From an uncultured Actinomycetes bacterium (GTDB lineage Bacteria; Actinomycetota; Acidimicrobiia; Acidimicrobiales; RAAP-2), in NCBI GenBank assembly GCA_903860745.1, contig CAIORQ010000040.1, positions 1 to 64,000 on the forward strand: DNA of 64,000 nucleotides, read 5' to 3'. Under the pieces are notes generated by a model, which was given only the letters and a program-made list of their open reading frames with translations, was not told where the DNA came from and did no database searches. A program made the position numbers and the translations under genes. Of this stretch, positions 58,873 to 64,000 are shown piece by piece. Position 1 is the first letter of the stretch, and each line of letters opens with the position of its first letter.

Positions 58873-60546
58873 GTGGTCCCTCGCGGATCCGGTCGACGCG
58901 TCGCCCTGGTCACGGTGGTCGCCGGTCTCGTCGTCGTCGCCTCCGTCCTGCTCGCCTACCGCTCGCCGCGCCCCACGCCGGGGCCCGCCGACCCGGCCTC
59001 CTCGAGCCTGACCCTGGACCTGCCGGGACCGATCAACGCCTGCAGCGTCCTCAACCCGTCGGCCTCGGCGACGACCACGGCGATCTTGGACCTGGTGCGC
59101 CCCTCGGCGTTCTTGACCGGCCCCACCGACATCCTCTTCGGAGAAGGTGGGGCGATCGCGTCGGCCGAGTTGGTGTCCCTGCACCCCGAGACCGTCGTCT
59201 ACACCGTCGACCCCAAACTGACCTGGAGCGACGGGCACCGATTCAGCGTGCGCGACCTGGTCGCGTGGTGGCACGCCGCGCGCGCCGTGCCCAGCATCGC
59301 CGACGACGGCTACCGCCACATCGCCTCGATGGTGGTGGGCAAGAAGGCCCTGTCGGTCACCGTGGTCTTCTCCCACGACTTCGCCGACTGGAACCTGCTC
59401 TTTCGCGACGTCAACGAGGCCGGCGTGACGTCGTCGTGCGACGTCGGGAACCTCACCCGGCAGCCCTCGCTCGGCCCCTACGACGTCGAGAGCGCCTCCA
59501 CGTCGCGAGTGGTCCTGATCTCCAATCCGCAGTGGACGGCCAACTACAACCGTTTCCATCGGGTCATCATCGTCACCGACGCCGACCTGTCCAACCACGA
59601 CGCGACCTACTTCGTGCGTTACTCGCCGGTGGCCACCCGGGCACTCGTGGACAACCTGGTCGCCCACCCCCGGTTCCAGGGACGATTCGGCAACTCCAGC
59701 GACATCGAGGAGATGACCTTCAGTCCCCACGACGCCCTCACCGCCAACCCGGCGATGCGCACCGCCCTGTCGTGGCTCTTGGACCGCCGCCAGATCCTCG
59801 CCAAACTCTTCGGCACCTTCACCTTCACGCCCGCGGTGCCGACGTCCGCCCTCTTCTCCCAGGGTCAGTTCGACTATCCGCCGCGAGTCAAGGGAATCAG
59901 GGCCACCAGTCGTGACGCGGCCCTCGTGAGCGCCAACGTCGACTGTCGTAGTTGTGCCGAGACCATCTTGCGCCGCAGCGGCTACCAGCGCACGGGGCAG
60001 GGTTGGCGTGATGCGTCTGGCGCCACCCTCAGCGTCATCGTCGCGGTCGGACCCTCGAGCCTGGACCACGCGACTGCGGCACTCGTCGAGGCCGAGTGGG
60101 AGACGCTCGGGGTCGAGGCGAGCGAGCTCGACGCGGCCACCGAGGTGCAGGCCGCCTCCATGGCCGCCGCCGGGACCGCGGACGTCGCACTCTTCGAGCG
60201 ACCGACCTCCACGACGCCGTGGTGGGCTGGGCGCTCCTGGGACGGTCCTGGCTCCACCGACGCCTACACCTCGGGCGTCACCCCGGCGAAGGTCAACTCC
60301 CTCTTCCAGTTGGCGCAGAGCACCTTCAATCCCGCCACCGCCGACCTCAGTTGGCTGAAGATCGACCAACTGCTCCTCCACGACTTCTGGGTTCGCCCGC
60401 TGTACACCGTGCCGTCGCTCACCGTGTGGTCACAGGACGTCGCCAATGTCGTGCCGTCGCTGTCGCTCAACGGTCTGGTGGACCAGGTCAGCGACTGGGG
60501 CATCACACCCGCGACGGCGACGTCGACGACCTCGACCGTCGGCTAA
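58873..60546 (+). CDS. Family 5 extracellular solute-binding protein, membrane-anchored
   Basis: 557-aa protein with an N-terminal signal anchor (about residues 9-29) and no lipobox cysteine, so it is probably tethered by the helix or secreted. The body resembles SBP_bac_5 peptide/nickel-binding proteins: WSDGHRFSVRDLVAWWHAAR, LGPYDVESAS, the ALSWLLDRRQIL and LLLHDFWVRPLY segments. No ABC permease or ATPase is adjacent, so its partner is elsewhere or it has another role. GTG 58873 follows secG by five bases. Confidence 0.8.
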   Translation: MVPRGSGRRVALVTVVAGLVVVASVLLAYRSPRPTPGPADPASSSLTLDLPGPINACSVLNPSASATTTAILDLVRPSAFLTGPTDILFGEGGAIASAELVSLHPETVVYTVDPKLTWSDGHRFSVRDLVAWWHAARAVPSIADDGYRHIASMVVGKKALSVTVVFSHDFADWNLLFRDVNEAGVTSSCDVGNLTRQPSLGPYDVESASTSRVVLISNPQWTANYNRFHRVIIVTDADLSNHDATYFVRYSPVATRALVDNLVAHPRFQGRFGNSSDIEEMTFSPHDALTANPAMRTALSWLLDRRQILAKLFGTFTFTPAVPTSALFSQGQFDYPPRVKGIRATSRDAALVSANVDCRSCAETILRRSGYQRTGQGWRDASGATLSVIVAVGPSSLDHATAALVEAEWETLGVEASELDAATEVQAASMAAAGTADVALFERPTSTTPWWAGRSWDGPGSTDAYTSGVTPAKVNSLFQLAQSTFNPATADLSWLKIDQLLLHDFWVRPLYTVPSLTVWSQDVANVVPSLSLNGLVDQVSDWGITPATATSTTSTVG

Positions 60547-60560: not shown

Positions 60561-60646
60561 GTCGAAGTGGCGAAATGGCAGACGCGCCAGCTTGAGGGGC
60601 TGGTGCCCTTTGGGGCGTGCGGGTTCAAGTCCCGCCTTCGACACCA
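60561..60646 (+). tRNA. tRNA-Leu (anticodon GAG), CCA encoded
   Basis: Class II tRNA: acceptor GTCGAAG pairs with CTTCGAC, anticodon stem CCAGC/GCTGG around loop TTGAGGG giving GAG (CUC/CUU codons), a long variable arm, TPsiC loop GTTCAAG, discriminator A and an encoded CCA at 60644-60646. The 3' 22 bases are also the last codons of the opposite-strand serine recombinase gene, so this tRNA is the probable attachment site of the element to its right. Confidence 0.95.
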
Positions 60647-62055
60647 ACATTCTCCGAGTGCTTGAGACCCACTTCACCGGGCAGGACAATTAGCGGGGGG
60701 CTTCCGGCAATTGTGATCTCGAAGTGCTCAGGGAAGACGACGATTGATTGGATGAAATTGTCGATCAGGATTCGGCGTTCCTGGTCCGTCGCGGCCTTCC
60801 AGATCATGTCCACGTCGAGGGTCTCCAGAATCTTGGCGACCTCTTCGAACTTCGCTTCCAGTTCAGTCGCCTGACGTTTGGCTCCCGCCTCCAAGCGTGC
60901 TTCCTCGGTGGCGGCCCGGATTGAGGCCTCGATGCGACTCTCCGCCTCCTGGAAGCCGTCCTCACTGATCTTGCCCTTGAAGTAAAGGTCGAGGAGTTTG
61001 CGACGATCCTCGGTGAGTTTCGCGAGCGTCGCGGGCCTGGCGCGGCGGGTCCCGGCCGCCGTCGCCGGCGCCACCGTGCCCCGCCCGGCCAGGTTCCGGC
61101 GTATCGCGTCACGCAGGTTCTCATCCTCGCGAATCAGGCGCAGACCCAGCAACATGGCGCGTTGCAGGCCAAGGTTGGAGCGACCCGGGACGTCGCATCC
61201 CGCGCCTCGGTGGTAACAGCGATAGAGCAGTTGGCCTTGGCCGTTCTGTGCGACGACCATGCGCCTTCCACACAGACCACAGAAGACGTGGCCGGACAGT
61301 ACGTCGTTCGACCGGCGAGTGCCGGTGCGGTTGTGGCGATTGGCGGCGTTCCACTCGGTCTCGGTGACGATGCCCTCGTGCTGGCCCACGTACCAGGTGT
61401 CGTTGAGCAGGACCTCGCCCAAGTAGATGCGTGAGTGGATGATGGTGCGCGCCAGTGAGTAGTTGATCCCCGTCGCCTCGGCGATCTTGGGGAAGGAGAG
61501 TCCCTCCGCTCTCAGTCGAAAGACCTCACGGACCCGCGCGGCGTCGCTGTTGACGACGAGGTGTCCGTCCACGATGTCGTAGCCGGTCTTGGGCCGATTG
61601 ACCCACTTGCCCTCCTTGACGGCCCGCTGGGTGCCCATGCGGACGTTCTCGGAGAGTTGCTCGCGGAAGTACTGCGCGAATGTACCCAGGATGTTGTAGA
61701 ACATCCGACCCGCCGCCGTGGAGAGATCGAGGTTCTCGGTGACCGAGTGCAGCGCGACCCCGTGCTCGCCGCACACGTCGGCCAGCAGGATCAGGTCGGA
61801 GAGATTTCGTGAAAGCCGGTCAAGTCGCCAAACCAGTAAATGGCTGACGTGACCCGCCTGCACGGCAGCGAGTACTTGCTGAAGACCGGGCCGCTCCAAG
61901 TTCTTGCCGGACTTGCCGGGATCGGTGACCACAGTGACCTCGCCAAGATCGCGCAATTGCGCGTAGAGCCGCAAACGGTCCGTCTGGCCCTCGATCGAGA
62001 AGCCCTCCTCGGCTTGTTCCTCGGTCGAGACTCGACAGTACGCGAGTGTGAGCAT
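60625..62055 (-). CDS. Large serine recombinase (integrase)
   Basis: 476-aa site-specific recombinase. The N-terminal resolvase domain has catalytic Ser10 in YCRVSTEEQ and the arginines of WRLDRLSRN. A recombinase domain follows (KTGYDIVDGHLV...INYSLARTIIHSRIYLGEVL), then a zinc ribbon (FCGLCGRRM...YRCYHRGAGC) and a C-terminal coiled-coil region. ATG 62055 is chosen because GGGAGGA lies four to five bases upstream; an ATG at 62073 is possible. The last seven codons lie inside the tRNA-Leu(GAG) gene. It probably integrates or excises the element carrying it. Confidence 0.9.
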   Translation of the reverse strand: MLTLAYCRVSTEEQAEEGFSIEGQTDRLRLYAQLRDLGEVTVVTDPGKSGKNLERPGLQQVLAAVQAGHVSHLLVWRLDRLSRNLSDLILLADVCGEHGVALHSVTENLDLSTAAGRMFYNILGTFAQYFREQLSENVRMGTQRAVKEGKWVNRPKTGYDIVDGHLVVNSDAARVREVFRLRAEGLSFPKIAEATGINYSLARTIIHSRIYLGEVLLNDTWYVGQHEGIVTETEWNAANRHNRTGTRRSNDVLSGHVFCGLCGRRMVVAQNGQGQLLYRCYHRGAGCDVPGRSNLGLQRAMLLGLRLIREDENLRDAIRRNLAGRGTVAPATAAGTRRARPATLAKLTEDRRKLLDLYFKGKISEDGFQEAESRIEASIRAATEEARLEAGAKRQATELEAKFEEVAKILETLDVDMIWKAATDQERRILIDNFIQSIVVFPEHFEITIAGSPPLIVLPGEVGLKHSENVGVEGGT

Positions 62056-63494: not shown

Positions 63495-64000
63495 ATGAAT
63501 GCAATCAACGCACAAACTCTCATTCATGCTGAATTGTACCAACGAGTCCTCTCTGGTGAATTCCTCGACGATCTGCGGACGGGCGTCATGCTCTTTGACG
63601 CTGACGGCATTGCCGTCGACAGCAATAAAGCCTCTACCGAATTGCTGGGTGCTGCACCGCACCAGTTAAGGGGCAAGATTCCCATCGATATGCCCATGGG
63701 CACCGTGCGCGAAGACGGTTCACTACTGCCTCTCGCCGAGCATGCCTCCGCACGTGCACTGCGAACGGGCGAGCCCTGCTACGGCCTGATCGTGGGGGTC
63801 GATGGTCCAGAACGATCGCGGCGGTGGCTGTCGGTGGATAGCTATCCGCTCGTGGTCGATGGTGCGATTAAGGGTGCCGTCGTATGTTTCGATGACATCT
63901 CCGACCAATGGAAGCAGCAACACCTGCTGCAATTACTCTCCGAGGTTAACCGAATCGTGATGTTCGCCTCCGATGACATTGATCCCCTGCAACACCTCTG
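63495..64000 (+). CDS. PAS-domain signalling protein, 3' end outside window
   Basis: An open frame from ATG 63495 runs to the right edge (168 codons seen). The N-terminal half is a PAS domain: FLDDLRTGVMLFDADGIAVD, ASTELLG, GAVVCFDDISDQ. A second segment begins LLQLLSEVNRIVMFASDD, like the start of a GAF sensor domain. An output domain (kinase, GGDEF/EAL or other) is expected beyond the window. Base composition is lower in GC than the core genes. No Shine-Dalgarno is evident at the ATG. Confidence 0.75.
   Translation, partial: MNAINAQTLIHAELYQRVLSGEFLDDLRTGVMLFDADGIAVDSNKASTELLGAAPHQLRGKIPIDMPMGTVREDGSLLPLAEHASARALRTGEPCYGLIVGVDGPERSRRWLSVDSYPLVVDGAIKGAVVCFDDISDQWKQQHLLQLLSEVNRIVMFASDDIDPLQHL

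Follow-up and report, generated by a model that had tools for sequence, protein, structure and literature searches.

A large serine recombinase (LSR) gene that ends inside a tRNA-Leu gene very probably runs, in the free element, through its own attachment site (attP), such that integration would split the gene and leave the native C-terminus at attR. The integrase lies in a 64,000-nucleotide stretch of an uncultured Acidimicrobiia contig, which we call the window. Taken jointly with the split gene, the element that carries it is, with the same high probability, a small integrative replicon. The overlap with the tRNA, a duplicated core, a far tail in the integrase's own frame, synonymous codon variation within that tail, and tandem arrays in relatives all argue at the sequence level for this reading.

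In the window, the integrase converges on an intact tRNA-Leu(GAG) and reads into it (Table 1). The earlier note had described the last seven codons as opposite-strand tRNA sequence, which is accurate when the stop is taken as one of the seven; the other six are sense codons, and all lie wholly inside the tRNA. The protein has Resolvase (PF00239, 1.3e-39), Zn_ribbon_recom (4.1e-07) and Recombinase (5.8e-06) domains. PF07508 and PF13408 both exceed their cut-offs, giving the protein the Recombinase and zinc-ribbon combination of the LSR class, and its Resolvase domain has the catalytic serine motif YCRVST, with S10 invariant in 7/7 aligned sequences, as expected of an LSR. The catalytic, recombinase and zinc-ribbon regions all precede the core. 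The structure model of the integrase is of low confidence (pTM 0.31), and no functional claim is built on it; it includes a long helix at 365-412, and residues 464-476 of the integrated form have pLDDT below 50.

Table 1. Features of the integrase locus and its element (window positions unless marked as contig positions)
Feature	Position	Strand	Basis or remark
Chromosomal flank, solute-binding protein gene	58873..60546	+	adjoins this tRNA-Leu in relatives
tRNA-Leu(GAG), intact	60561..60646	+	ARAGORN; Rfam RF00005 at 60561-60643, 54.9 bits
Overlap of LSR and tRNA: six sense codons (GVEGGT) and TGA stop, antisense of tRNA acceptor/T-arm	60625..60646	-	22 nt, stop included
attL core CCTTCGACACCAAC, 14 nt: tRNA 3' end and two bases	60635..60648	+	
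Large serine recombinase (integrase), 476 aa as read when integrated	60625..62055	-	ORF, Pfam, PHROG integrase 1.2e-91; ATG at 62055, stop 60625-60627
Replication initiator, rolling-circle type (Rep_trans-like), 351 aa	62182..63237	-	just upstream of integrase
PAS-GAF-HD (HD-GYP-like) gene start, 520 aa in full	63495..64000, on to contig 65057	+	ORF, Pfam
Far tail	contig 65137-65188		beyond window

The element integrated at the tRNA-Leu 3' end, now part of attL. An exact 14-nt copy of CCTTCGACACCAAC, representing attR, lies outside the window at contig positions 65189-65202 (L004 5189-5202), on a contig of 68,245 bp that extends 4.2 kb past the window. Integration at this tRNA, as the earlier note had proposed, is borne out by the duplication of the tRNA 3' end 4.5 kb away and by element boundaries and tandem arrays in relatives. 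From this attL/attR anatomy, the window LSR appears to be a recombinase that would act on attP and attB. The integrated element measures about 4.55 kb and comprises the LSR, a rolling-circle-type Rep and the PAS-GAF-HD gene. It sits before an older relic element, a degraded recombinase 3' part following the attR copy on the contig. Just past that relic (contig C40, about 65929-66519; L004 5929-6519) is a secreted-looking frame with collagen-like Gly-X-Y repeats.

The predicted fold of Rep may resemble that of Rep_trans initiators: the best Foldseek hits of its model (pLDDT 68) are 4cij and 4cwc (RepDE), the former with probability 1.00 and E 5.2e-06, but at TM scores of only 0.33-0.46 for 4cij and 0.28-0.46 over the two together. 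Here, Rep lies beside an integrase and its sequence match to Pfam Rep_trans (E 0.014, 15.5 bits) is under the cut-off of 29.6. Rep homologs occur in 16/45 stretches searched, the window included. AICE profiles combine an FtsK/SpoIIIE-type transfer protein with RepSA, RepAM or Prim-Pol, as set out in portions of Ghinet 2011 (PMC3218068). This combination does not occur among the three main ORFs between the cores, and no conjugation gene was identified among the element's main ORFs.

The window protein is present in 22/395 genomes of the class (E <= 1e-30) and in 19/99 genomes of the genus (E <= 1e-40). The class search gave 26 match places. A tRNA-Leu lies convergent at the recombinase end in 14 of these, window included; 2 have tRNA-Ala or tRNA-Val and 10 have no called tRNA. 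This recurrence, like the duplicated tRNA 3' end, is a sign that the overlap goes beyond chance. Among the 14, one anticodon is called AAG (L013) and one frame is broken 73 nt before the tRNA (L015), and two of the ten places lacking a called tRNA (L021, L022) still show tRNA-Leu-like sequence. Two further loci with strong PF07508 scores, L101 at tRNA-Leu(GAG) and L104 with no called tRNA, apparently belong to another LSR group and share the VGGGT ending.

Using the solute-binding gene as a marker for the relatives' sites with and without an element, we found that this gene and the tRNA-Leu stay paired in the genus (tRNA included in 26/30 loci fetched). The window's type of recombinase, whole or in part, lies beside the tRNA-Leu in 8/26 such loci, counting the window, over an available flank of 66 to about 1,400 nt. 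Sites free of this recombinase within that flank, of the kind the earlier note had suggested looking for, were found as well. At L038, L047, L051 and L058 no recombinase was found in the flank at the tRNA, yet these sites retain lone far arms with W-R-[L/I/M] tails, which are likely scars of lost elements. At L062 (G099), where the intact tRNA-Leu occupies 67-153, a further copy of its 3' end lies about 30 bp downstream, near the contig end. Five matches to the C-type far-arm tail (L309, L311-L314) lie on other contigs of a single genome, G084, with no recombinase detected in the stretch by tblastn; the core followed by W-R-L-x-x-W occurs only in L312 (twice) and L313 among them.

The final 10-20 nt of the tRNA recur 4-12 kb away in the window genome, G378, G001, G022, G084, G026, G161, G186 and G056. 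Core copies are also found in G348, G817, G420, G435 and others, and tandem arms in several, namely G001, G056 and G420. When the far arm is joined to the core, the integrase frame continues without a stop into W-R-[L/I/M] and then ends, the stop falling 3 to 22 residues past the Trp in 20 tails. For the window, the reconstructed attP would read HSENVGVEG and then, across the junction, LTCTISDWRLSAWVRG and a stop, where the integrated form reads HSENVGVEGGT and a stop. The tails are known from reconstructed attP sites or from tandem or relic junctions, and two junctions show the read-through naturally, with no joining on our part: a 146-aa frame of the older relic on the window contig, ending in VGVEGLTCTISDWRLSAWVRG, and a frame in G056 ending in SCRRAEETDIHWRLRPWAAAS. 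Both start from a partial recombinase 3' end and fall short of a whole, intact gene. We found no free circle or phage genome holding a complete and undisturbed integrase gene that ends in a W-R-L tail.

We compared the frame of the motif with that of the integrase in 18 integrases with a second core copy, 16 at tRNA-Leu and 2 at a tRNA-like 3' fragment (G832, L097). In 14/18, the nearest second copy has the motif in the integrase's own frame (13/17 from one scan requiring a second core copy of at least 9/11 nt, plus G186 from attP reconstruction). This is the arrangement expected of a self-splitting integrase, with attP inside the coding sequence and the gene divided on integration, and it points to such a gene here. 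The four exceptions are G412, with the motif in another frame, and G052, G832 and L097, with no motif at a copy that may be there by chance. For G141, G142, G443, G825 and L032, no second core copy was found within the stretch available. Integrases away from tRNA genes gave further own-frame cases: G157a (in two pieces), L035 (with a looser core accepted) and the second element of G420, whose nearest copy is degenerate (HWSRV) and whose second-nearest copy was counted instead. Discordant among them are G258, with the motif in another frame, and G402, with a copy that has no motif; no core copy was found for G404, G430 and G054.

Where the motif occurs in any frame, it is in the integrase's own frame in 14/15 cases, or 17/19 when integrases away from tRNA genes are included. 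As background, W[RK][LIM] occurs in a single given frame at 402 of 57,000 positions (0.7%). The binomial probability for 17/19 is 6e-7 on the assumption of independence, which related rows do not satisfy. The tandem array of G420 provides an internal comparison. Its order is tRNA, VGG-type integrase, VGG-type tail, VSE-type integrase, VSE-type tail, and for both elements the far arm matches the frame of its own integrase and not that of its neighbor.

The family reads the antisense tRNA in all three frames, giving VGxGGT and a stop, VSEGGLEPP or CRRGDLNPH. Own-frame tails follow each of these (9 VGG, 3 VSE and 2 CRR of the 14), and in a tree the VSE rows and the CRR rows each fall on one side of a branch with 99/97 support, so that changes of core frame seem to be matched by changes of tail frame. 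An own-frame tail in relatives, over three core frames, argues that attP lies within the integrase gene. The codons of the tail point the same way. In 20 own-frame tails, the distance from core to Trp is 8 to 13 codons and the Arg is encoded by all six of its codons (CGG9 CGA4 CGC3 AGG2 AGA1 CGT1); the next residue uses both Leu boxes (CTT5 CTC4 CTG4 ATC3 TTA2 TTG1 ATG1). A second Trp follows in the pattern xxW in 14/20 tails, all six exceptions belonging to the VSE group. These 20 tails were chosen by the motif, several from one genome, which makes the motif residues a given, while the codons and the later Trp are independent of the choice. The synonymous variation thus indicates conservation at the level of the protein.

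The earlier note had suggested that the C-terminus of the integrase is created or conserved by its integration site. The first part stands in a limited sense: the present C-terminal residues are indeed supplied by the tRNA. That a meaningful C-terminus is created or conserved there is not supported: the three reading frames give unrelated tails. We considered conservation of the tRNA-encoded tail itself and rejected it on the strength of those three frames, and one group has no stop in the T-loop. The tail that is conserved is W-R-L, which comes from the opposite end of the element, would be removed by integration, and is not encoded by the tRNA.

We propose the following course of events. In a free circle, whose existence we infer, the integrase gene would continue past a core of about 11-14 nt that duplicates the tRNA-Leu(GAG) 3' end, and would stop after the conserved W-R-[L/I/M] tail on the other arm of attP. 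Recombination of attP with attB at the acceptor-stem end of the tRNA would keep the tRNA whole and split the integrase gene. About 1,400 nt of the gene would remain at attL, and its reading would continue into the antisense tRNA as far as a stop, which in the window group would be the TGA supplied by the antisense T-loop. The true C-terminal codons would move to attR and tRNA-encoded residues would take their place; excision would reunite gene and tail. The enzyme made before insertion would then differ from the one made afterwards. We expect that the W-R-L tail is translated and of consequence, and that its loss would alter integrase activity, most likely toward a stable integrated state. By analogy with the suicidal integrases of archaea, lost integration competence or a bias in direction is the natural hypothesis. 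More tentatively, and at clearly less than even chances in our estimation, the split may act as an integration switch, in which the tailed free form is competent for integration and the tail swap turns the enzyme off or redirects it. Direction would then be fixed with no directionality factor or alongside one; many LSRs that read into other tRNA or tmRNA genes may do likewise with other tails.

Could the far-arm motif be simply an attP DNA element, a recombinase half-site or a site for a directionality factor, that happens to be read in frame, with the integrase ending at any stop? LSRs bind attP arms, so conserved DNA near the core is to be expected, and the bases next to the core are similar between elements. 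This explanation is nonetheless highly improbable given that the conserved residues draw on every one of the six Arg codons and on both Leu boxes, that the Trp lies at a variable distance from the core, and that the motif frame follows the cognate integrase in 14/15. We also regard it as quite improbable that this is an ordinary LSR element at a tRNA whose overlap is an accident of no consequence. The placement of the known functional regions upstream of the core fits such an accident, and the poorly modeled residues at the end of the integrated form may be dispensable. An accident would, however, leave unexplained both the conservation of a far-side tail through synonymous codon change and the coupling of its frame to that of the integrase.

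Rather more weight, though still on the unlikely side, goes to the possibility that the second core copy on the window contig belongs to the older degraded element and that the right end of the window element lies elsewhere. The recombinase relic adjoins the copy, and an integrase 97% identical to that of the window (L031/G441) has a different junction. On the other hand, the arm shares the frame of the window integrase, the 4.55 kb spacing resembles that of relatives (4.1-4.8 kb in G001, G084, G186 and G056), and the first arm agrees in frame with whichever integrase is nearer the tRNA in G420, G056 and G348. The near-identical integrase reads into tRNA-like sequence and stops there, as do seven others with a tRNA-like junction (L201, L203, L207, L210, L214, L215, L084), ending in VGxGPT and a stop or similar. 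A repeat of this kind, GGGTTYACGTCGGSCCTYCGACAC, which resembles the tRNA 3' part and contains a short hairpin by eye, occurs with at most one mismatch in 24/99 genus genomes, up to 4 per genome; its reversed control has no hit in the 99. It lies near 1750-1773 in L031, near 3671-3694 in L033 and at 1501-1524 in L254, and tblastn places a recombinase 3' part beside it in 7/30 loci fetched. L031 and L033 had been considered as circular free forms; they show no terminal overlap, and their common junction is the dispersed tRNA-like repeat. The repeat junction may be another type of arm or a secondary target. With such a junction in a 97% identical integrase, the window attR may not be the sole possible partner arm, and this is the main weakness of the split-gene account for the window's own element.

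SSV1-type archaeal integrases use tRNA genes. These "suicidal" enzymes resemble the proposed arrangement in having the recombination site within the integrase gene, which is split on integration, as described in sections of an archaeal review (PMC8371274). They differ in belonging to the tyrosine family and in losing their catalytic part; the window integrase is bacterial, belongs to the serine family and would lose only a short C-terminal tail. Those sections describe self-disrupting recombinases as exclusive to archaea and argue that the complete integrase gene behaves like a directionality factor (PMC8371274). Integrases crossing attP are noted, in the accounts available to us, for SSV and for Myxococcus phage Mx8, whose IntP likewise extends across attP; IntP is treated there among the tyrosine-family integrases, whereas here a serine recombinase has a conserved far-arm tail. 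Self-splitting is thus known for archaeal tyrosine integrases and for Mx8 IntP, and no serine integrase gene crossing attP or split on integration turned up in our searches of open-license literature. Serine recombinases at tRNA genes are themselves on record: Ghinet 2011, in the portions available, describes eight Mycobacterium AICE serine recombinases at one tRNA-Leu, calls such cases rare, and includes phage phiRSM1 at tRNA-Ser (PMC3218068). Those portions mention neither overlap nor gene splitting, and the word "overlap" is absent from the main text as available (PMC3218068). The word "tRNA" is likewise absent from the available main text of Durrant 2022 (PMC10083194).

Serine integrases are standard genome-engineering tools, prized for one-way integration. 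If the gene is split as we propose, integrases of this natural family would rewrite their own C-terminus on integration. That would offer a direct handle on the control of direction, and integrases taken from integrated copies would bear the wrong C-terminus, lacking the native tail. The serine family would join the known self-splitting integrases and, together with Mx8, bring bacteria into their range.

Close relatives were sought among phages and plasmids, and none emerged. The 105 matching phage records are all below 60% identity, the top-ranked at 28%, and none of 15 matching plasmid records covers 80% of the query. Viral contigs were scanned with the window integrase (3 loci), the G022 type (1), the B type (none) and alignment A1 (36). 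No W-R-L was present in any of the C-termini read, which covered 22 of the 37 loci from the G022-type and A1 scans, nor in L097; the frame of L268 runs past the contig edge beforehand, and the remainder are mostly distant LSRs, where the tail is not expected.

At other tRNA targets, second copies measure 12-17 nt for Thr, Glu and G035 and are longer in G133. In longer stretches, copies of 46 and 48 nt appear for Lys (G581) and Ala GGC (G022), and no clear att copy was found for Val, Met, Ser, Pro, Arg and Ala CGC. No frame was found on tail reconstruction for Glu and G133. Tails could be rebuilt only for tRNA-Thr (G676) and another Leu-type LSR (G035), both without W-R-L, and we therefore do not extend the split tail to integrases at other tRNAs. 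The overlap itself is common. In a PF07508 sample from the class and phylum, made up of best-scoring matches and not drawn at random (58 loci fetched, 5 not assessable), 23/53 assessable loci overlap a tRNA or tmRNA convergently. By rough arithmetic, a random gene end would do so in about 0.1% of cases. Two of the 23 frames reach no stop within the stretch. On this survey, serine recombinases that read into tRNA genes seem to be widespread across the phylum and not exceptional. The targets are Leu, Val, Ala, Lys, Ser, Glu, Arg, Met, Asn, Ile, Pro, Tyr and tmRNA. Many of the sampled recombinase tails carry a G[FLI]EP-like motif, which we take to be the antisense T-arm.
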